Assembly (NCBI RefSeq): GCF_008806325.1
Contig: NZ_WACR01000008.1
Location: 1 to 64,000 of the forward strand
Source: Salibacter halophilus
GTDB taxonomy: Bacteria > Bacteroidota > Bacteroidia > Flavobacteriales_G > Salibacteraceae
Direction: 5' to 3'
Length of the DNA: 64,000 bases
Shown: one piece after another, positions 41,463 through 52,021 of the stretch
Layout: the number at the start of each line of letters is the position of its first letter
Numbering within the stretch: the first letter of the stretch is position 1
The notes under the pieces: model-generated
What the model saw: only the letters and a program-made list of their open reading frames with translations
Told to the model about the DNA's origin: nothing
Databases searched by the model: none
Position numbers and translations under genes: made by a program

Positions 41463-42424
41463 TGGATAAGAAGCAGGCCACAGCTATGATCAAGAGTAAA
41501 GCCCATGAGCTGGGTTTTATGTTTTGTGGTGTGTCGCGCGCGCAAAAGTTGGAAACTGAAGCTCGCAGACTTGAGGATTGGCTCAATAAAAACCGAAATG
41601 GTGAAATGCAGTGGATGGAGAACCACTTTGAAAAGCGCATTGATCCAACAAAGTTGGTTCCCGGTTCAAAGAGCGTGGTTTCAGTCGCAATGAATTATTT
41701 TAATGGTCAGAACCGGCAGCCGGCCGATTCACCAAAAATCTCAAAATACGCTTACGGGCGAGATTATCACAAGGTTCTGAAAAAAAGACTGAAACAGCTG
41801 TTTCAATTTATCAATGAAGAAATTGGAGAAGTTGAAGGGCGTTTTTTTGTGGACTCTGCTCCCGTGATGGACAAAGCCTGGGCCAAAAGGAGCGGACTTG
41901 GATGGCAGGGAAAAAACACGAACCTTATTTCACCAAAAGTTGGATCTTTTTTCTTCCTGGGTGAGTTGATCATCGATTTAGATCTCGAATACGATGGTGA
42001 AATTAAGGACTTTTGCGGCACTTGTACGCGCTGTTTGGATGCTTGTCCAACTGGAGCGCTAAATCCTGAGAGACCTTACGAAATTGAAGCGAATCGCTGT
42101 ATTTCTTATTACACAATTGAGCTGAAAGGCAGTTTGCCAGATGGACTCAACGATCAGTTTGAAAATTGGATGTTTGGCTGTGATATTTGTCAGGACGTTT
42201 GTCCGTGGAACAGAAAGAGTATTCCTCATGATGAACCTGATTTCAATCCAAAAAGTGATTTACTCGAAATGACAGCAGCGGATTGGCAAAACCTTACGAA
42301 AGATGTGTTTGATGAAATATTTGCCGGATCTCCTGTTAAGCGTACCGGGTTTGATGGACTCAAGCGAAATATTCAATACGTTGCAGAATCTACAGGAGCG
42401 CGATCAGATTTTAAGAATTCATAG
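41462..42424 (+). CDS. queG: Epoxyqueuosine reductase
   Basis: Reduces epoxyqueuosine in tRNA to queuosine, the last step of that pathway, using cobalamin and two [4Fe-4S] clusters. Both cluster motifs are visible: CGTCTRCLDACPTGAL (about residue 184) and CDICQDVCPWN (about 238). The catalytic Asp is in FVDSAPVMDKAWA. Length is 320 residues, the short form without C-terminal HEAT repeats. It needs B12, which fits with the adenosyltransferase at 14.4 kb only in a general way. The last 52 bases overlap the converging barrel gene. Confidence 0.94.
   Translation: MDKKQATAMIKSKAHELGFMFCGVSRAQKLETEARRLEDWLNKNRNGEMQWMENHFEKRIDPTKLVPGSKSVVSVAMNYFNGQNRQPADSPKISKYAYGRDYHKVLKKRLKQLFQFINEEIGEVEGRFFVDSAPVMDKAWAKRSGLGWQGKNTNLISPKVGSFFFLGELIIDLDLEYDGEIKDFCGTCTRCLDACPTGALNPERPYEIEANRCISYYTIELKGSLPDGLNDQFENWMFGCDICQDVCPWNRKSIPHDEPDFNPKSDLLEMTAADWQNLTKDVFDEIFAGSPVKRTGFDGLKRNIQYVAESTGARSDFKNS
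41705..41714 (+). repeat. Dispersed word GGTCAGAACC
   Basis: In queG, read G-Q-N. Confidence 0.85.
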
Positions 42425-43029
42425 TTGATCGTAAACTGAGCTACAGTATTGTAAGACCCTCCAAAAAAACCGCCAAATCTGGGTCTGAAAATGACTTCAT
42501 TGGCTATTGGAAGAAAGGAGCGTGAATAGCGTACGTTAACAGCAAAGCGATCAGATAGTGAATAAGTAAGGCCCAGATTGACAGCCAATTCAAAGTCTTT
42601 AAATTCTAAGAATGCCATCTGTTCTGATATTGGCCCATTTTCATCTTCCTGTGAACTCGACAAAAGTGTTCCAAAAGAAACTCCTGTTTCCCAATCAAAT
42701 TTCCCTAGTTTGTAGGTAGCCATCAACGGCAGCTCGATATATGAGAGGTTAATCCTGTAGCTTTCAAATTTCCCGTTTTCCGGATCTGCCGGATCCCAAC
42801 TTCCTTTTTGGATGTAGAGCATTTCGAGCTTTCCGCCAAATTTATCAGAGAATTGAGTTGAAACATAGGGGCCAGCTATAACTCCGGCCTTATTAAATCC
42901 CTTATATCCGTCACCCGCAATTTGGGTGCCAGCTACACCGGCTCTAATGCCAGCGTTAAACCGGGTGCTCTGGCTCTGACCGATAAATGACAAGCTAATA
43001 AAAAATGCTATGAAAAGAACTCTAATCAC
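42373..43029 (-). CDS. Outer-membrane beta-barrel protein (PorT-like OMP_b-brl_2 type)
   Basis: A 218-residue barrel with a signal peptide ending IGQSQS. FNAGIRAGVAGTQI and RINLSYIELPLMATYKLG are the pattern of the OMP_b-brl_2 family, found in PorT and many uncharacterised porins of Bacteroidota. Not PorT by any specific feature. The start overlaps the Omp28-like gene stop by 4 bases, so it is co-transcribed with it. A GGTCAGAGCC word falls in the signal-peptide codons. The end overlaps queG by 52 bases. Confidence 0.82.
   Translation of the reverse strand: MIRVLFIAFFISLSFIGQSQSTRFNAGIRAGVAGTQIAGDGYKGFNKAGVIAGPYVSTQFSDKFGGKLEMLYIQKGSWDPADPENGKFESYRINLSYIELPLMATYKLGKFDWETGVSFGTLLSSSQEDENGPISEQMAFLEFKDFELAVNLGLTYSLSDRFAVNVRYSRSFLPIANEVIFRPRFGGFFGGSYNTVAQFTINYEFLKSDRAPVDSATY
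42972..42981 (-). repeat. Dispersed word GGTCAGAGCC
   Basis: In the signal peptide of the minus-strand barrel gene, read G-Q-S. Confidence 0.85.
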
Positions 43030-43940
43030 TCATTTGTCATTTTAAAGTGCTCAGCGTGAATTATTTCGTTTGTGTTGACTTCAGTTAGATAAACAACAAC
43101 CTCCATGTTATTGGCGGTCCATTCTTCTAGTACATTAGTGCGAAGCTCGTCTTCTGGTGCTTCAACTGTGAACTGAGCTCCAGCCTGTGGGTCAGTGAAA
43201 ATTGTACGACCAGATCCATTTCCTGGAAAACCGAGCCTTAAAATATGGTTGTGCTCGTAGTTAGGAACTTTAGATGGCGTTTTACGATTATCGATTTGAG
43301 GGCCAATAATCCCGTTTTCGAGTAAAAATGCGTGAAGTCTAACCTCTCCGCTAATTGACTGTAAAACTTCTATAGTGGGAATAAGACGAAGGATTCTACT
43401 CTCAGTATTGTAAATGCTTTGAACTTTCATTTCAAACCTTGGCTCAATGAATGATTGATCCTGAACCATTTGGTCGATTGTGTTTTCCCATTGCGGAATT
43501 CCGGTTATTGGGTCATCATCATTGAAGTAATCAGCACGATTGATTAATCCGCTAGGGAAAAAACTCATTTGAAACTTATTGCGTAAAAACTCACCGGTTT
43601 CAGTTCTGAGGTCTAGTGTGAATTCATCATCGGGTTCACTGAAGTTTCCTGAATTGTGAATTGCCACAGCGATAACTAAATTAGGGTATTCAGATTTGAG
43701 AGTGTCAGCTATGTCTGTTGCTTTGGGGCAATTAGGACATTTCATTCCAGTGAAGTCCTCAATAATAATACGTCTTGAGTTTTGGATAGTGGTATCGGAG
43801 TAAACTGTATCATTGAATCTGATGTCACCCGTTTCAGAGATGAAAGCATCGAGATGCTGATAAGGGTCATCTACTTTGTCGCAACTGTTAAGTGCAACAG
43901 TCAGAACCAAAATTAAGGGTAAATAAAGTTTCTTCATCAT
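43026..43940 (-). CDS. Omp28-related lipoprotein with CPNC motif
   Basis: A lipid-anchored protein (lipobox VALNSC, residue 20) with an Omp28-like thioredoxin-fold domain. IEDFTGMKCPNCPKA at residues 61-74 has the CXXC pair where thioredoxins carry their active site. A beta-rich second half follows. By family it is an outer-membrane lipoprotein; disulfide chemistry is inferred from the CXXC. It lies between the DUF6029 gene (3 bases away) and the barrel gene (4-base overlap), in one minus-strand operon that probably starts with the TlpA gene. Confidence 0.85.
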   Translation of the reverse strand: MMKKLYLPLILVLTVALNSCDKVDDPYQHLDAFISETGDIRFNDTVYSDTTIQNSRRIIIEDFTGMKCPNCPKATDIADTLKSEYPNLVIAVAIHNSGNFSEPDDEFTLDLRTETGEFLRNKFQMSFFPSGLINRADYFNDDDPITGIPQWENTIDQMVQDQSFIEPRFEMKVQSIYNTESRILRLIPTIEVLQSISGEVRLHAFLLENGIIGPQIDNRKTPSKVPNYEHNHILRLGFPGNGSGRTIFTDPQAGAQFTVEAPEDELRTNVLEEWTANNMEVVVYLTEVNTNEIIHAEHFKMTNE

Positions 43941-43943
43941 AAC

Positions 43944-45623
43944 TTAGAATGTTGTTGTTACACTTAATGTAGCTCCGTTTGATGCGGGTACTGTTCGGCA
44001 AACACCACCTACACAAAAAATTCCTTCTCGTTGTCTTCCGTAACCCAATGTAATGCGTGTTGGTCCTTGAATATATCCTACATTTACGTTAGGATAATGA
44101 AGTCGTTTCTCTTTATCGCTATTTCCGTAGTTGTATTGATCCATAACTGAAACGAACCAATGTGGAGATCGAGTATACTCGATTACAACTGTTGCCCAGT
44201 CACCTTTATCCTGCTCAGTAAAGAGACCTTGCAATTCTGTTCTAATCGCATTTTTTGTGTTGATTTTATAGAGACCTTCTATAACTCCAACATTAGCAAT
44301 TACATTTGGTACTCCAGGCTTTCCTTCAATTATTTCCTGATTGTAAACCAAATGTTGATAGGTCACTTTCGTTTTCCACTTTTTGTTCAACTTACGTGAT
44401 ACTTCAATATTAAAGTCTCCGTAATATTGATCAAGGTCGCCATTTTCATCAGTTCCCGGTTTAAAGAGGTTGTAGCGGTGCCCTGTTCTTTGTCCTTGCA
44501 AATCTGGATCTACATCCTCAACAGGGGTTCTTTCCACAGCTGTGGCAATTGAGTAGTTCACATTGATAGACGTACCATGTTTACCTCCGTACCAGGTTCC
44601 GCGTTTGAGGCGACCAACGATATCTGCCTGGAATGCCATTTCACCATTTGGCTGTGTGGCATAAGGGTAGAGAGTTGCCATAAGGTTGTAAGTGTGTTGT
44701 TTGGTCAGAGCCGGTATGTAGTTGATGAACAAATCCTGAAACTGAGAGGAGTTGTTGCGATCTGACCGAAAAAACATATTGTCTAATGTGTGTGCACTCA
44801 AATTGATTCCCAATCCTTTTCTCGCGTAAGATGCCGAAACAGATAACATTTCTCCGCTTTGGTATATGTATCCGTTATCAGCATTGGGATCATTGAACTT
44901 ATAAGTGTATTCCCCGCTAAGTGATAGCGTTTTGTGTTGAAGTAGGAATCGGCCACCGTAAGCTAATGTGTTTTCTGGTAATGTGAGATTAATGTTGTTA
45001 TCTTCCTGGTATTTACTCACAACGCTACCTCCAAGAGTAATGCGAGTTGGTCCGTTCAGGGCTGATCCTAAAAGTTCATTCAAATTTACTTCGGCATCAC
45101 CAGCTCTAACAATTCCGGGCCCTTTATCGAAATACCAGCGTTGCTTCCCTATGAGAGCAGTCAAATAAACACCATTTGTGTTGTACTTCATTCGGGCTCC
45201 ATCAAATGCGTTATCTAAACCAAGAGATCTTTCTTCGTAGGCTCTCAGGATTTGACCATTACCAAATTGCTCGTAAAAGTTACCGATAGTTACATCGAGA
45301 TCACCAACGGTATAGCCGGCATACCGATATGTTAAGCCGCTACCTTCATAGAGCGGACTAAAGCCTAAAAGGACGTTTTGGTATGTTTCATAACGAACGC
45401 CTGCCCTAAAATCACCTCGTGTGTAATTGATATTACTAAACCCATTAAAAAGGATTTTTTCAGGAACTCTTGGAGTACCAATATCGGGGTCGTAAGAATA
45501 GTACTGTCCTATTCCTTCAAAGTTACCTGTAATTCTGCCTAAGTCTTCCTGCTTATTGAGCTGGGCGTTGGCCAGAACCGGAAACAGAATAACAACCGCG
45601 AGCAATTTGAATGGGGCTTTCAT
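43944..45623 (-). CDS. DUF6029 family outer-membrane protein
   Basis: A 559-residue predicted porin with a signal peptide ending LANAQ. GRITGNFEGIGQYYSYD near the start and GDLDVTIGNFYEQFGNG (about 107-123) are the DUF6029 pattern. Strong alternating strands continue to the end, which is TTF. Its gene follows the TlpA gene and precedes the Omp28-like gene, and in Bacteroidota these three are often together. That suggests a complex in which the barrel handles a thiol-containing or redox-active cargo; this is inference. It carries a GGTCAGAGCC word at 44703-44712 and a near-copy facing it at 44758-44767. Confidence 0.85.
   Translation of the reverse strand: MKAPFKLLAVVILFPVLANAQLNKQEDLGRITGNFEGIGQYYSYDPDIGTPRVPEKILFNGFSNINYTRGDFRAGVRYETYQNVLLGFSPLYEGSGLTYRYAGYTVGDLDVTIGNFYEQFGNGQILRAYEERSLGLDNAFDGARMKYNTNGVYLTALIGKQRWYFDKGPGIVRAGDAEVNLNELLGSALNGPTRITLGGSVVSKYQEDNNINLTLPENTLAYGGRFLLQHKTLSLSGEYTYKFNDPNADNGYIYQSGEMLSVSASYARKGLGINLSAHTLDNMFFRSDRNNSSQFQDLFINYIPALTKQHTYNLMATLYPYATQPNGEMAFQADIVGRLKRGTWYGGKHGTSINVNYSIATAVERTPVEDVDPDLQGQRTGHRYNLFKPGTDENGDLDQYYGDFNIEVSRKLNKKWKTKVTYQHLVYNQEIIEGKPGVPNVIANVGVIEGLYKINTKNAIRTELQGLFTEQDKGDWATVVIEYTRSPHWFVSVMDQYNYGNSDKEKRLHYPNVNVGYIQGPTRITLGYGRQREGIFCVGGVCRTVPASNGATLSVTTTF
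44703..44712 (+). repeat. Dispersed word GGTCAGAGCC
   Basis: In the DUF6029 gene; coding strand reads A-L-T. A 9/10 copy (44758-44767) faces it. Confidence 0.85.
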
Positions 45624-45649: not shown

Positions 45650-46168
45650 TTAATGATCTAATTCTTTACCGTTAGAAAGAGCCTGGACTAACCTAAAGAG
45701 TTCTTCTTCATCTCCAGGTTGGTAAGAGTTATGGTGCCAAACAATTTTACCATCACCATCGATTAAAAATGTGTGAGGAACGTTGTTGACATTCATAGCT
45801 CGTTTAAAATCTCCATTTGGGTCGAGTAGTACATCGTACTCCCAACCTTGTCCATAGACATAAGTAGGGACTTTATTGATGTTTCTGGCATCATCAATAG
45901 ATACTGCAACAAGTTTAACGCCTGTTTCAGCCTGCCAGTCAGGATACATGTCTCTGATTGTATTCAGCTCTCTTTTGCAAGGACTACACCATGTTGCCCA
46001 AAAGGATATGATAATTGGATCACCCCCATTCTGAATCACATCAGCTGTGTTGATGTTTTCGAAGTCGAGGTTTTTGATTTTGACAGAAGGCACCTGACGT
46101 CCTTTAATTTGAGCAAAGGAAAACGTTACAAAGAGTAGAAATGCTGCGAGAGAAAGTACTTTTTTCAT
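45650..46168 (-). CDS. TlpA-type thiol-disulfide oxidoreductase
   Basis: A secreted thioredoxin-like protein, 172 residues, signal peptide ending FSFAQ. The active site is WATWCSPCKREL (Cys 61 and 64), and the cis-Pro loop lies in NNVPHTFLIDG. It would act as reductant or oxidant in the periplasm. It is the first gene of the minus-strand run TlpA-DUF6029-Omp28-barrel. The Cys pair is complete, unlike degenerate family members. Confidence 0.92.
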   Translation of the reverse strand: MKKVLSLAAFLLFVTFSFAQIKGRQVPSVKIKNLDFENINTADVIQNGGDPIIISFWATWCSPCKRELNTIRDMYPDWQAETGVKLVAVSIDDARNINKVPTYVYGQGWEYDVLLDPNGDFKRAMNVNNVPHTFLIDGDGKIVWHHNSYQPGDEEELFRLVQALSNGKELDH

Positions 46169-46246: not shown

Positions 46247-46500
46247 TTATTCAATAACTAATGGTTTTACAGTTCTTGCCCCATCATTTGAAGTTATTGA
46301 TACATAATACATGCCACTATTCAAATCAGCAGTTTGAAGTTGAACAAGGTTGTTACCCTGTTGAACAGAAACACGTGGCATATTCATTACTTGCTTACCT
46401 GTAACATCGTAAACAGCAACATTGAATTCATCACTTTCAGAAGCAACGATATTCAACTTGGCGTTACCGTTTGTAGGATTAGGGTAGAGGTTAAATGAAT
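46247..46500 (-). repeat. T9SS sorting-tail repeat, copy 1
   Basis: The DNA for the last ~84 residues is nearly the same as at 49127-49380, by eye about 85% identical bases, while the rest of the two genes has diverged. Confidence 0.8.
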
Positions 46501-48166
46501 TTGATTTCTCTAATTTATTTTCAACTGAAGATGGACCGTTTGTACTTACTTTTCTTTTATTAGCGTTAACTATTCTACCAGTTGAAGATTCGATGATCAT
46601 TCCCACAGCAGTAAGCTTTGAAGGATCGTCAATGTTAACTGCAATAGGTTCTTCAAATTCATGAACATTGTAATCATTTGCAGTAATAGGTGAAGAAATG
46701 CTTCCTGCTTCTCCATTGTAACCACCCATTAACATACGGCCAACGTGATTATAGGTCATATCAGCTGCTGGTACAGGATCTGGTTTATTTTCGTAACCGC
46801 CCATAGCTCCATTAGCTCCACCTGCATAATAATTTACCTGAGCATAGCCACTAGTCGTTCCAGTGACTTCGTCTTCCATGATAACTACTGCATATCGATA
46901 TTCATCAGATAAATTCGCAGCAAACTGAGAAACTAAAATCACTTTAATATTCGAGTCCGTAGTGATATATGCATCAGCAATATCCATTTCAGCAAGTGCT
47001 AACCTATCCATAAATTGGTTGTAAGCAGACTCCATGTTATTTTGACTCACACCTGCTCCAAGAATTGAGCGATTAATGTGCATGCCAGGGAATCCAGTGA
47101 AAGCCGATCCATTATCGTATTCTGTTACTACCATTGGGTCATTATTGTGAACTGCAATTCCAATAAAGCCCTGATCAGCATAGTTGTCATACATATAGTT
47201 CATAGCTATTTCACCTCTAGGACACCATCCACACCATGTGCCAGTTCCTTCTTCGATAACTACAGTATTGTCAGATTCAAACATGAGTCCAAAAACAGCA
47301 GAACCTGTAATCTCATTATTAGTATTGTCTGCATCATTGGCAACTGAAATTGATACATCAATGTTGTATGTTTCTCCTCCTGTTATGCTTAACTGATCTG
47401 AATGAGTGAAATCATACTCCTGATATGAAGCAATTGACAATCCTGTAATGTTATCAGTGTATGAGTTTGTTCCGTCTGTCCAGGTAACGTCAACAGAGTT
47501 GATTGTAGAGGATCCATTATTTTTGATCGTTCCGGAAATATCAACAACATCACCATCTACACCTCTATCATTAATGTCAACAGACTCCAAAGAAACCTCT
47601 ACTGGAGCCAATGTTTTTACAGAGATGTCATCAATGTTAAGCCTATACTGATCAGTAACATTATGGTGTCTAAATGCAACATAAATATTTTGACCAGCAA
47701 ATGATGAAACATCAAGTGATCTAACCAAATATTCATCGTTGGAAGTACCTACAACCTCATTGAATGTTGTTGAAGATGCTGTAAAGTCATTGGTTGAGTT
47801 TCCTGTAGCAACATAAACAGTGTAGTTTTCATCAGCCCAGTTTTGATCCTGCCCTTTAACCAACCAGGAAAGAGAGATTGTGCCAGAAGCATTACTCAAA
47901 TCAATTGCTGGAGTTATTAACCAGTTATCTGGTGTAAGTGGGCCTGTCCCACTTTGCCATGATTCAGAAGTAGCGACATTGCCTTGTCCGTCACCATAAT
48001 CAGTGGTTAGCCAGTTATTACCGTCACCATCAGCATCGACAGAATTCATATTCGTTGGAATAGTATTATTTGAAGCTGATGAAAAATCTTCAAAATAGTG
48101 CGTAGTTTGACTTTGAGCAAATGAAAAGGCTCCAAGAAAAGCACCAAAAAGTAATAATTTCTTCAT
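46247..48166 (-). CDS. T9SS type A cargo with cleaved-adhesin and Omp28-like thioredoxin domains
   Basis: A 639-residue surface or secreted protein. After a signal peptide ending SFAQSQ, residues 20 to about 190 form a cleaved-adhesin (jelly-roll) domain with GTGPLTPDNWLITPAIDLS. A short CARDB-like module follows (about 190-290). The Omp28-like domain with GTGTWCGWCPRGE lies at about 308-320, with a complete CXXC. The end is the sorting domain NLYPNPTNGNAKL through NDGARTVKPLVIE. The paralogue at 49127-51220 has the same tail and same layout. No motif copies of the dispersed word are here. Confidence 0.9.
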   Translation of the reverse strand: MKKLLLFGAFLGAFSFAQSQTTHYFEDFSSASNNTIPTNMNSVDADGDGNNWLTTDYGDGQGNVATSESWQSGTGPLTPDNWLITPAIDLSNASGTISLSWLVKGQDQNWADENYTVYVATGNSTNDFTASSTTFNEVVGTSNDEYLVRSLDVSSFAGQNIYVAFRHHNVTDQYRLNIDDISVKTLAPVEVSLESVDINDRGVDGDVVDISGTIKNNGSSTINSVDVTWTDGTNSYTDNITGLSIASYQEYDFTHSDQLSITGGETYNIDVSISVANDADNTNNEITGSAVFGLMFESDNTVVIEEGTGTWCGWCPRGEIAMNYMYDNYADQGFIGIAVHNNDPMVVTEYDNGSAFTGFPGMHINRSILGAGVSQNNMESAYNQFMDRLALAEMDIADAYITTDSNIKVILVSQFAANLSDEYRYAVVIMEDEVTGTTSGYAQVNYYAGGANGAMGGYENKPDPVPAADMTYNHVGRMLMGGYNGEAGSISSPITANDYNVHEFEEPIAVNIDDPSKLTAVGMIIESSTGRIVNANKRKVSTNGPSSVENKLEKSNSFNLYPNPTNGNAKLNIVASESDEFNVAVYDVTGKQVMNMPRVSVQQGNNLVQLQTADLNSGMYYVSITSNDGARTVKPLVIE

Positions 48167-48279
48167 ACGTTTGGGTTTAAATAATTAATAATGTGCTAAG
48201 ATAAAGTTATTTTAACTAAAACAATGGATTGTTTTAAAAAATGATTTTTGAGAGATTTAATCTATAAAATTCTTTGATC

Positions 48280-48981
48280 ATGAAAAATTTGGTTTTGTTT
48301 TTAGTTGCTTTAGTTTTTGTGAATATTTCAGTTGCTCAGTTGACATTTTCTTCGAAGAAGGTATCTCTTCAAATGGAGCCAGGTGAAGATAACAAGGCAA
48401 CAATTGAGATTTTCAATAATACAAATTACGATATTGATCTTGAATGGGAGTTAGTATCTAATGATTTGAATGAGAACTGGTCAATTCAATTTTGTGAATG
48501 TAACACGTGTTATACTAATGACTTTGCCCCTATTGACCAGGTTACTCAGGGTGGAATGTCTTGCCCAACAATGAGCTCAGGAGGGCCTAATGCTGCATGG
48601 TATTTGATAGTTGATCCTGGTTCTGAACCGCAAACATATGCAGAATGGAAAATTGTAGTTGAAAATATTACTGATAGACTTTATGATACACTAACATTTG
48701 CTGCTGAACCTACAAATAGCATAAATACTGTTTCAAGGACAGGTGAAATTTCTGTTTACCCTAATCCAGCATCAGATATTGTAAACGTCAAACTATTAAA
48801 TTCAAAATACGAATCGCTTGATTTCACTTTGATGAATGTTGTTGGTAAACAAGTATTGTCTGGCCGCTTAAATACTGGCCAATCTGAAATCCCTACAAGT
48901 GATCTAAACAGTGGAATTTATTTTTTGAATATTAAATCTAATGGTTCCGTTATTTTTAATGAAAAACTTATCGTTAATTAA
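48280..48981 (+). CDS. Small T9SS type A cargo protein with paired cysteines, copy 1
   Basis: A 233-residue protein (start ATG 48280; TTG two codons earlier also in frame) with a signal peptide ending ISVAQ, a small beta domain of about 130 residues and a type A sorting tail starting SVYPNPASD. The domain has NWSIQFCECNTCYTNDF, with Cys pairs conserved in the paralogue at 51311, and an extra SCPTMS. It is divergent from the Omp28/T9SS gene with a 113-base gap. I recognise no named family for the domain. Function unknown. Confidence 0.85.
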   Translation: MKNLVLFLVALVFVNISVAQLTFSSKKVSLQMEPGEDNKATIEIFNNTNYDIDLEWELVSNDLNENWSIQFCECNTCYTNDFAPIDQVTQGGMSCPTMSSGGPNAAWYLIVDPGSEPQTYAEWKIVVENITDRLYDTLTFAAEPTNSINTVSRTGEISVYPNPASDIVNVKLLNSKYESLDFTLMNVVGKQVLSGRLNTGQSEIPTSDLNSGIYFLNIKSNGSVIFNEKLIVN

Positions 48982-49003
48982 AGTCTGAATATATTACACA
49001 TAC

Positions 49004-49040
49004 AAAAGCCAGTGATTATGATTGATCATTGGCTTTTTTT
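49004..49040 (+). terminator. Terminator after the first small T9SS cargo gene
   Basis: AAAAGCCAGTGAT pairs with ATCATTGGCTTTT (one wobble) around 7 bases, followed by a run of T. Confidence 0.88.
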
Positions 49041-49063
49041 GTTGAAGTGAGCTATTGTTAATA

Positions 49064-49093
49064 GCAAAAAAAGGGTCGCGTTTAGCGACCCTT
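49064..49093 (-). terminator. Terminator after the second Omp28/T9SS gene
   Basis: Stem GGGTCGC / GCGACCC with a 5-base loop; seven A on the left make the T run for the minus strand. Confidence 0.88.
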
Positions 49094-49126
49094 AGACCAA
49101 ATTTCAATGGTTTTTGTACTACCTAC

Positions 49127-49380
49127 CTACTTAACAACAAGTTTCTTTGTGATAGATTGACCATCGTTTGTTGTAATAGCTACATAATACATTCCATGAT
49201 TCAAATTAGCAGTTTGAAGTTGAACGAGGTTTTTTCCTTGTTGAACTGCTACTTGTGGCATATTCATAACTTGTTTACCTGTAACATCATATACTGCAAT
49301 ATTGAACTCATCGCTTTCTGAAGCTGTAATGCTCAATTTAGCATTACCATTTGTAGGGTTAGGGTAAAGGTTGATAGAGT
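49127..49380 (-). repeat. T9SS sorting-tail repeat, copy 2
   Basis: Partner of the repeat at 46247-46500; shared blocks include CAGTTTGAAGTTGAAC on the plus strand of both. Confidence 0.8.
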
Positions 49381-51220
49381 TTGCAGAATAAATTGATGAA
49401 ATTGAAGTCGTGTCACCAGGATTGTCTGGATTATCTGGATTTTCATTTATTTCAGTTCCAATTGCAGCTTGATGAACTTCGTTCGTTGTTGAGTTTTGAA
49501 CCCATGCAATAACATAAAGGCTTTCAAAGTCTTCTACACTGTGCTCAGTTAAATGATTGATCCTGTTTCCTGATTGACCATCAGCTGGTAGTCTGTAATC
49601 ACCTTCAAATACATAGTTTCCAGAAATGTTTTCCTGAGATCCCTGGCTCAATGAAATTGACTGACCATTTTCATCTGGAATCATTTTTTTCATTACCTGG
49701 AAAAACTCAGTCTCACCATTTGTCTTTACATTATCTGTAGTTGTATCTTCAACTATAGCGATGTAAAGATTATTATTACCCAGGTTTGTGAATGATTCAA
49801 CGTCAATGTCGTAATACACTTTCTGAGAGTCGGGAACTAGATCGTATTCTATATCGATAGATACAAAGGATGGAACTGCTCTGGCATCATTGTGAAGCGA
49901 TATATCAAATGCATTTGCGTTTTCATCCCAACCACCATCGATTTCCATTCTTGGAATTGAGTTAATGCTGTAATAGTTGCGTCTGTTTACTGACTCATCT
50001 GTAGCATAAGGGTCTCCTGTTCCAGGGAAGTTTTGTTGATACTTAAGAGCTACAAACTCTCCTTCGTAGTTTGCTAAAGTATTATGGAAGTTTTCATTTC
50101 CTGGACGGCATGGACCACAGGTAGAGCTAGTGAACACTTCGTAAAATGGCATTCTTTGAATTACTGTATCAACTACTTCAACTGTCTTAGTGAGAGTATC
50201 ATTTGAATTGTCACCATCAGTAGATCCATTTGGGTTTGAAACCCATGCTTTAATTGTGTAGGCACCTGTTGAGGATGGGGACCATGTGTTATTGTTGTTA
50301 AAAGCGTCACTGTTAAATGTGTTGATAGTGAGGTTGCTAATTGTGTTCGATTCTACAGAACCGCCATTAATAGTATAATTTATATCGAAGTTGTTCAAAG
50401 TTGCTGATCCCATGTTTCTAACTTCACCATTAATAGAAAATGGAGCATTAGCTGAAGGAAGATAATCATCGATAGTAAGTGAACTCAAAGCAACATCATT
50501 AGCTGGCTGAGTGCCGGGGATAAATGAAACATATCCATTGTCATCCGGAGCAGATCCGTTTTCTGCACTACCGGCATAAGAGTCATATCCAGCAGGCTGA
50601 ATAGCTGTTGAATTGTCTATTTGAATACCAACGCTAAGAGAAGGCCTTCCCGTACAAGTTGATTGTCCCTGAATACATTGCACTCTTTGGTCTACAACGT
50701 AAATCTTGTTTGAAGATTCTTCAAGAACAAAGCTCAAATATACCCATCCGTCTTGAGTGCCTGCAGAATGGGCTGAATTGAACATTATCCAATGTTGACG
50801 ATTAGGAGCACTTCCAAAAGTTTTAGAAACAATATAGTCATTGTTTTCTATTGATAAACCCCATGCACAAACAGAGCTATCTGGAATAGACGCGTCTGGT
50901 AATGAACTGGGAGTAGCTGGAGTTGTAGTTGAAGTGCTAAACGTCAATACTCCTGAAGGGTGAACATTGTAATTTGAAACAGTAGAACCATTAAACGAAA
51001 AGTTGAATGGAATTGATTGTTGACCCGTCCAGGTAGTACTAGGCCCAGTTGAAATAGTATTCCAGCCACCAGGCAGTCCTCCCCCAACAGGGAATTCGTT
51101 GTCGGTGTTTAATCCACCAGGATTCTCTCCGGCCTGATCAAATGGCACAGCATAATATTGCGCTGTAGCTATGCTTGAGCTAAGAAACAATATTAATGAT
51201 AATAGCGTAAGTTTTTTCAT
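49127..51220 (-). CDS. T9SS type A cargo with Omp28-like thioredoxin domain, paralogue 2
   Basis: A 697-residue protein with a signal peptide ending ATAQY. The N-terminal 230 residues are a beta domain with FSFNGSTVSNYNVHPSG, then a CARDB-like module (about 240-350). FTSSTCGPCRPGNENF at about 364-379 is the CXXC site of an Omp28-like domain. The end is NLYPNPTNGNAKL with the same sequence pattern as the first paralogue. The layout is that of 46247-48166 with a different N-terminal domain. It is divergent from the small cargo gene at 51311 (90-base gap). Confidence 0.9.
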   Translation of the reverse strand: MKKLTLLSLILFLSSSIATAQYYAVPFDQAGENPGGLNTDNEFPVGGGLPGGWNTISTGPSTTWTGQQSIPFNFSFNGSTVSNYNVHPSGVLTFSTSTTTPATPSSLPDASIPDSSVCAWGLSIENNDYIVSKTFGSAPNRQHWIMFNSAHSAGTQDGWVYLSFVLEESSNKIYVVDQRVQCIQGQSTCTGRPSLSVGIQIDNSTAIQPAGYDSYAGSAENGSAPDDNGYVSFIPGTQPANDVALSSLTIDDYLPSANAPFSINGEVRNMGSATLNNFDINYTINGGSVESNTISNLTINTFNSDAFNNNNTWSPSSTGAYTIKAWVSNPNGSTDGDNSNDTLTKTVEVVDTVIQRMPFYEVFTSSTCGPCRPGNENFHNTLANYEGEFVALKYQQNFPGTGDPYATDESVNRRNYYSINSIPRMEIDGGWDENANAFDISLHNDARAVPSFVSIDIEYDLVPDSQKVYYDIDVESFTNLGNNNLYIAIVEDTTTDNVKTNGETEFFQVMKKMIPDENGQSISLSQGSQENISGNYVFEGDYRLPADGQSGNRINHLTEHSVEDFESLYVIAWVQNSTTNEVHQAAIGTEINENPDNPDNPGDTTSISSIYSANSINLYPNPTNGNAKLSITASESDEFNIAVYDVTGKQVMNMPQVAVQQGKNLVQLQTANLNHGMYYVAITTNDGQSITKKLVVK

Positions 51221-51270
51221 GATTGTTACTTTTTGATTTGATAATCAATAATTAAGAATTTCAAATATTG

Positions 51271-51278
51271 TACATTTG
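51271..51278 (+). promoter_or_regulatory. -7 box TACATTTG before the second small T9SS cargo gene
   Basis: A match to TAnnTTTG, 32 bases before the ATG at 51311; no good -33 TTG is seen. Confidence 0.45.
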
Positions 51279-51310
51279 TTAGATAAAAGCAACTTTAAAT
51301 ACACATAATG

Positions 51311-52021
51311 ATGATCAAAAAATACATTTCTAAAGCTTTGTTGCTGTTTTTTATTTTTTCGAGTAGTGCATTAACTGCTCAATATCTTGATTTTTCAAGA
51401 GACTCAGCATCTGTTTCCTTGTTCAAAAATATAATGGATACCGCTAAAATTAATGTGGTAAATAATTCAGGCCAGGGTGTTTTGGTTAGCTGGAGAACAA
51501 TCGAAAATAACTTAAATTCTAATTGGGACCTTCAATTCTGTGATTACACTACATGTTACACGAATAATTTTCAGCCATTAATAGAGGATGGAGATACTGC
51601 TACACTTCCAGATGGGTATAACGGAAGCTGGTATTTAGGTGTTGATATTGGAGATCTTGATGGCGCGTTTAGTGTATGGAAAATCGAAGTGAATTTCATC
51701 GATTTTGGCGTTTATGATACTTTAACATGGACAACTGAAGACTTAACAAGCTCAAAAAGTCTCAGTCTAAATTCCCGAAATGTTTCAATCTACCCAAATC
51801 CAGCTAATGATCAGCTCAATCTTGTTTTTGATGATGCTTCTATTAGTGAAGGTATGAATTATGATCTTTACAGTATTGTGGGTAGATCTGTTAAAAATGG
51901 TGTTGTCAATAGAACTAAAACTATAATTGAAACATCTAACCTTCAAAGTGGTGTTTACATTCTTCAGGTCAATTCAGAATCTGGGGAAAGCGTGCTTCAT
52001 GAAAAAATTGTAGTCGAATAA
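51311..52021 (+). CDS. Small T9SS type A cargo protein with paired cysteines, copy 2
   Basis: A 236-residue paralogue of 48280-48981. A signal peptide ends LTAQY; the domain has NWDLQFCDYTTCYTNNF in the same place as copy 1, and WYLGVDIGDL then VWKIEVNF also align with WYLIVDPGSE and EWKIVVEN. The tail starts SIYPNPANDQL. An ATG one codon earlier (51308) is also possible. It sits divergently beside the second Omp28/T9SS gene exactly as copy 1 sits beside the first. Confidence 0.85.
   Translation: MIKKYISKALLLFFIFSSSALTAQYLDFSRDSASVSLFKNIMDTAKINVVNNSGQGVLVSWRTIENNLNSNWDLQFCDYTTCYTNNFQPLIEDGDTATLPDGYNGSWYLGVDIGDLDGAFSVWKIEVNFIDFGVYDTLTWTTEDLTSSKSLSLNSRNVSIYPNPANDQLNLVFDDASISEGMNYDLYSIVGRSVKNGVVNRTKTIIETSNLQSGVYILQVNSESGESVLHEKIVVE

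Follow-up and report, generated by a model that had tools for sequence, protein, structure and literature searches.

An unnamed family of small cysteine-pair cargo proteins at a candidate surface thiol-redox locus of Salibacter halophilus

Proteins exported by the type IX secretion system (T9SS) can have thioredoxin activity, as is evident from HBP35 of Porphyromonas gingivalis, a T9SS cargo protein with a CXXC motif that reduces insulin in vitro and requires both cysteines to do so (PMC2907840). A second described protein of P. gingivalis, PorA, consists of 246 amino acids and, according to the parts of its description considered here, acts upstream of PorXY-SigP (PMC7712824). In addition, gliding and the T9SS are energised via disulfides between outer-membrane proteins and the moving track (PMC12635249), and neither thioredoxin nor Dsb proteins or oxidoreductases are mentioned in the main text of that study. 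Here, we analysed a stretch of 64,000 nucleotides (the window) from Salibacter halophilus, in which two divergent gene pairs at positions 46247-52021 each combine a large cargo gene coding for a CXXC domain with a small cargo gene coding for a conserved cysteine pair. New are this unnamed small T9SS family and its place in a widespread, putatively redox-active TlpA-DUF6029-Omp28 surface locus, of which we found no description in the open-access literature.

Two divergent pairs of predicted T9SS cargo genes

Pair A is composed of large A (46247-48166, minus strand, 639 amino acids) and small A (48280-48981, plus strand, 233 amino acids), which are separated by a divergent intergenic region of 113 base pairs (bp; 48167-48279). 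Large B (49127-51220, minus strand, 697 amino acids) and small B (51311-52021, plus strand, 236 amino acids, with an alternative ATG possible at 51308) form pair B, with 90 bp between them (51221-51310). The original prediction, made from the DNA letters alone, had noted this twofold arrangement of a large gene on the minus and a small gene on the plus strand, and all four open reading frames were confirmed. Neither divergent region contains the Bacteroidota consensus promoter (TTTG-TAnnTTTG), matches to which occur at chance level throughout the window. All four proteins start with a signal peptide, recognised by eye in the translations by a lysine, a hydrophobic stretch and an A-Q or S-Q cleavage-like site, and end with a T9SS type A tail (TIGR04183/PF18962) scoring 46-60 bits, with cut-offs of 23 and 27. 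They are probably T9SS cargo proteins located at the cell surface; the genome contains 121 places with a T9SS tail in total.

The two small proteins share 35% identity across their whole length (127 bits, E value 9e-40, BLASTP) and align, as had been predicted, around a cysteine motif, QFCECNTCYTNDF in small A and QFCDYTTCYTNNF in small B, with WYL and WKI blocks also present. As the 3.1 Mb genome holds only these two copies of the small protein, both at this locus, the occurrence of two adjacent small genes is not due to chance. The large proteins (154 bits, E value 3e-43, a score owed mostly to the tail) are built from a variable N-terminal domain, followed by a CARDB-like part, a CXXC domain (CGWC in large A, CGPC in large B) and the tail. 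The N-terminal domain belongs to Cleaved_Adhesin/choice_anch_J in large A (E values 1e-24 and 4e-21), and no named domain was matched for that of large B in the Pfam/NCBIfam scan. The CARDB-like parts are homologous with a probability of 99.6% (hhalign) and the CXXC parts with 94.6% in a profile-profile comparison, and the tails are 79% identical over 77 residues, with no other tail of the genome exceeding 33%. The earlier claim of a shared CXXC domain and tail therefore stands.

The CXXC domains of both large proteins resemble the Omp28 lipoprotein family, with probabilities of 99.5% for large A and 98.2% for large B (hhalign against a profile whose rows are lipoproteins plus some Omp28-type cargo from the same genome family). 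The curated Omp28 cut-off (PF11551/NF033782) is not reached, as large A scores 24.5 bits instead of 150 and large B gives no match, and both differ from that family in being T9SS cargo rather than lipoproteins. Together with the tails above cut-off, the profile comparison nevertheless supports the proposed assignment of the large proteins as T9SS cargo with an Omp28/thioredoxin-type domain. In HBP35, likewise a T9SS cargo protein, a thioredoxin-like CXXC domain is combined with a C-terminal domain (CTD; PMC2907840), whereas large A and large B, whose activity is putative, carry the Omp28 type of domain, add a CARDB-like and a further N-terminal domain and have a divergently encoded small partner.

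Cysteines and fold of the small proteins

Neither Pfam nor NCBIfam contains a family that the small proteins match at or above cut-off with their N-terminal domain. In two alignments of the small family, which have only the rows of small A and small B in common, the cysteine pair is the sole strictly invariant feature. Small B possesses this pair only, whereas small A carries a second, covarying pair, its four cysteines being C72, C74, C77 and C96. Among the homologues there are 15 clear cases of a third cysteine two residues after the first, and each of these (15/15) has exactly one cysteine further downstream, whereas 43 of the 54 homologues lacking the third cysteine lack a downstream one as well (p 1e-8). 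The second pair is thus present or absent as a whole, as expected of disulfides, and the simplest reading of this pattern is that two disulfides, C1-C2 and C3-C4, may form. A different second pair (YCF...DSxC) co-occurs in a subset of distant small proteins (L185:3358-4056, L186, L188, L189, L195 and L198).

A structure model of small A, based on five sequences and with a predicted local distance difference test (pLDDT) score of 79, is all-beta with two domains. Its tail corresponds to the T9SS CTD (Z 9.6, 28% identity) and its N-terminal domain is Ig-like (immunoglobulin-like) according to the model. The nearest solved fold to the latter among the 50 chains listed is the N-terminal domain of PorA (6kjk; Z 10.2, 10% identity), and ASH/PapD-like domains score within one Z unit of this match. 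Structures of the DsbD N-terminal domain do not appear in this list of 50, which has no bearing on a fold of that kind.

The conserved locus and its distribution

Starting from DUF6029, which is present in 88 of 119 genomes, we sampled 39 DUF6029 loci across the class, and found the order small gene, divergent CXXC cargo gene, TlpA, DUF6029 and Omp28 in many families. A CXXC T9SS cargo gene lies upstream in 17 of the 39 loci and is accompanied by a small homologue in 16 of them. Only 6 of the 22 loci without CXXC cargo have a small homologue (Fisher p 5e-5), each of the six with TlpA. In 14 DUF6029 loci, the small gene directly adjoins the CXXC gene in head-to-head orientation, mostly at a distance of 86-273 bp. 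As the loci are phylogenetically non-independent, p values serve as guides only. The small proteins of the DUF6029 loci are distant from the window pair (probability of 96.7% in the profile-profile comparison, E value 4e-10), and a hidden Markov model made from them matches small B at 6e-8 and small A at 1e-6. A profile combining both sets (A12) matched 95 places in 73 of the 119 genomes, 43 of which are within 9 kb of DUF6029, with 0.5 expected; these 43 places are spread over 38 genomes and 21 families, and 19 of the 38 genomes had contributed no row to A12. Among the A12 places away from DUF6029, 20 were fetched, and 7 of these are beside CXXC cargo or TlpA.

Separately from the DUF6029 approach, a profile of the small domain (A3) gave matches in 89 of 346 genomes. 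Of 88 loci found in this way, 28 have CXXC T9SS cargo no more than two genes and 3 kb away (29 if L039 is included, where N bases fall within the CXXC), and 6 have both CXXC cargo and a multicopper oxidase. A search with an alignment of four small proteins returned only three loci, labelled Cryomorphaceae and Flavobacteriales, all already in the set. In other families, a same-strand run is formed by a small thioredoxin-like T9SS cargo gene (CGSC, CASC or CGAC), the small gene and a multicopper oxidase gene (L098:6148-11651, L105:6083-9356, L109, L113:483-3671 and L119:3536-8187), with a T9SS protein bearing CDCC near some of these runs, which represent a second, different surface redox/copper setting of the small family. 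At L041, L042, L045 and L088, two genes resembling multicopper oxidases of half size come after the small gene; the second of them has a T9SS tail, and CXXC cargo is absent.

In S. halophilus, a run of minus-strand genes starts with large A. At a distance of 79 bp downstream of it lies a gene for a TlpA/ResA-like thioredoxin with a signal peptide and a CSPC motif (45650-46168), then, after about 26 bp, that for a DUF6029 protein (43944-45623, E value 8e-177), which is probably an outer-membrane barrel. About 3 bp further on is an Omp28 lipoprotein gene with CPNC (43026-43940, 53.2 bits, cut-off 34.9), which overlaps the last gene of the run, coding for an outer membrane beta-barrel protein (OMP_b-brl_2, 42373-43029). 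We take the gene beyond the run to be queG and those on the other side to be sir2, malic enzyme, ruvA and sprA, named from their sequences. The order small gene, CXXC cargo, TlpA, DUF6029 and Omp28 recurs in relatives of the same family, in which CXXC cargo genes and small genes, one or two of either kind, are inserted between TlpA and sir2. The cargo type is interchangeable in these family loci (CGWC, CGPC/CPPC/CAPC, Omp28-like with CTYC or AhpC-like with CGPC), and L040 has a small gene without CXXC cargo. Omp28-like T9SS cargo of L048 (7034-8989) and L036 (4257-6203) reads NSSGPSAS or NNSLPSAS, where a relative at L099 has TKCSVCAS; these proteins are probably non-catalytic paralogues beside the locus.

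Function and origin of the two pairs

We hold with moderate confidence that the two pairs represent that end of a conserved thiol-redox locus of the outer membrane which operates at the cell surface. All proteins of the locus would be exported, and the large protein and its small partner would leave the cell via the T9SS and remain at the surface. There, the CXXC domain of the large protein could make, reduce or re-shuffle the disulfide(s) of the small protein, which would be a client or partner dedicated to it. TlpA and Omp28 could hold this CXXC domain in the right redox state. A DsbD-type protein that contains two DsbD_N domains is likewise encoded in the genome (C7:172903-173718) and is a possible periplasmic source of reductant for TlpA. 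Export signals, T9SS tails, CXXC domains, the conserved cysteine pair, the recurring head-to-head layout and the TlpA/DUF6029/Omp28 gene order can be read in the sequences; the surface location, the disulfide state, a direct contact between large and small protein and the direction of electron flow are inferred. One might further speculate, although we consider this rather unlikely, that the locus constitutes a thiol relay across the outer membrane. In such a relay, TlpA in the periplasm, together with the DUF6029 barrel and the Omp28 lipoprotein, would pass redox equivalents to a surface thioredoxin delivered by the T9SS, and the Ig-fold partner dedicated to the latter, a member of a hitherto undescribed family, would carry or sense the redox state of the surface.

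That the members of a pair may work together had been part of the original prediction, and this gains strong comparative support, as conservation of the head-to-head pairing extends well beyond this genome, which makes a joint action of small and large protein likely. However, the small gene is not always divergent to a CXXC cargo gene, and small homologues without such a neighbour, which the prediction had named as speaking against it, do occur: about 43 of the 88 A3 loci have neither CXXC cargo nor an oxidase, and 13 of the 20 A12 places fetched away from DUF6029 lack adjoining CXXC cargo or TlpA. An obligatory pairing with CXXC cargo is therefore rejected, and the association is preferential. 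These loci count against a role at the surface end of a redox locus, as do the 10 of 88 A3 loci with a multicopper oxidase only and the observation that most large B-type cargo genes have no small gene nearby. The same applies to the core model of large B, which is good over the CARDB-like part only and, with a pLDDT under 50, too weak for use over the CXXC part, and no structure shows the contact. Finally, cysteine pairs that merely staple a surface Ig domain would look alike.

The last point leads to the main rival explanation, according to which the small protein acts at the surface as an adhesin or sensor of the PorA type. Its cysteine pairs would then serve solely to stabilise the Ig fold, and CXXC cargo would be encoded nearby because both proteins are part of one surface regulon. 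This explanation is possible, if somewhat doubtful. PorA, which provides the best fold match, has the same layout of signal peptide, one Ig-like domain and T9SS CTD at about 240 amino acids, as far as the description considered here goes (PMC7712824, PDB 6KJK), and its signalling role together with the many small homologues, about half, that lack a CXXC or oxidase neighbour would fit such a function. However, other Ig-like domains match nearly as well, and no relationship at the sequence level was found, as 6kjk was missed by both small-family profiles, A3 (E value up to 1) and A12 (E value up to 10). In addition, the authors found PorA homologues in Porphyromonas only, and the parts of their account considered here describe no CXXC neighbour (PMC7712824). 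A PorA-type function would also leave unexplained why nearly all DUF6029 loci with CXXC cargo contain the small gene. Alternatively, the small protein might be a redox shuttle whose cysteine pair passes electrons to thioredoxin-like partners, akin to the N-terminal domain of DsbD. The DsbD N-terminal domain has an Ig-like fold, its C-D-x3-C spacing in related genomes is that of the small proteins (FMVCDDxKCLPP and QFCDxxxCY, respectively), and thioredoxin-like neighbours recur at the locus. We nevertheless consider a shuttle of this kind improbable, as hhalign gives only 0.5% over 14 columns confined to the motif, there is no match to DsbD_N (PF11412) or any other Pfam family, and the motif lies in the middle of the domain in the small protein, as opposed to close to the C-terminal end in DsbD_N. 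Membership of the small family in DsbD_N is not supported, and the parallel is a motif resemblance only.

With regard to the origin of the second pair, the original prediction held that the pair had been copied as a unit. If one pair had undergone segmental tandem duplication in this lineage, this would account for the repeated order and orientation and for the near-identical tails of the large genes, but such an event is highly improbable. Holding large A and large B as sisters was rejected (approximately unbiased test, p 4e-87), which, for the large genes, rejects a recent duplication as a unit. In a tree built from the CXXC cores, large A falls into a group with genes from two further genera of its family (98/98), and large B joins different genes. 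Their N-terminal domains differ, protein identity is about 15-30% up to the tail, and high identity is confined to a tail-coding direct repeat of 223 nucleotides (46281-46503 in large A and 49161-49383 in large B, both minus strand), whose copies are 80% identical, as compared to about 40% nucleotide identity elsewhere. For the small genes, a sister relationship of small A and small B is borderline (p 0.054); as their tree has no resolution at depth, partner swapping is suggested, but not proven. In tandem cargo genes with unrelated N-terminal domains at L032 (5552-9723), the CXXC core and tail are 86-100% identical at the DNA level, and at L035 (5530-9647) the proteins share 98% identity over a block of 40 residues surrounding CXXC. 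Such near-identical tracts would be best explained by gene conversion (or domain swapping), and the 223-nucleotide tail repeat could be a local conversion tract. It is quite plausible that the second pair derives from an ancient family of cargo genes of this kind, at a site where partners turn over, rather than being a recent copy of its neighbour.

Thiol chemistry at the outer membrane of Bacteroidota has recently become a central topic. For thiol management at or outside this membrane, a concrete candidate is provided by a widespread locus that unites three thioredoxin-like proteins, two barrels and a surface protein with a cysteine pair, and that lies near sprA in S. halophilus. The locus also offers a testable function for the small T9SS cargo proteins, whose unnamed family is found in many Bacteroidota.

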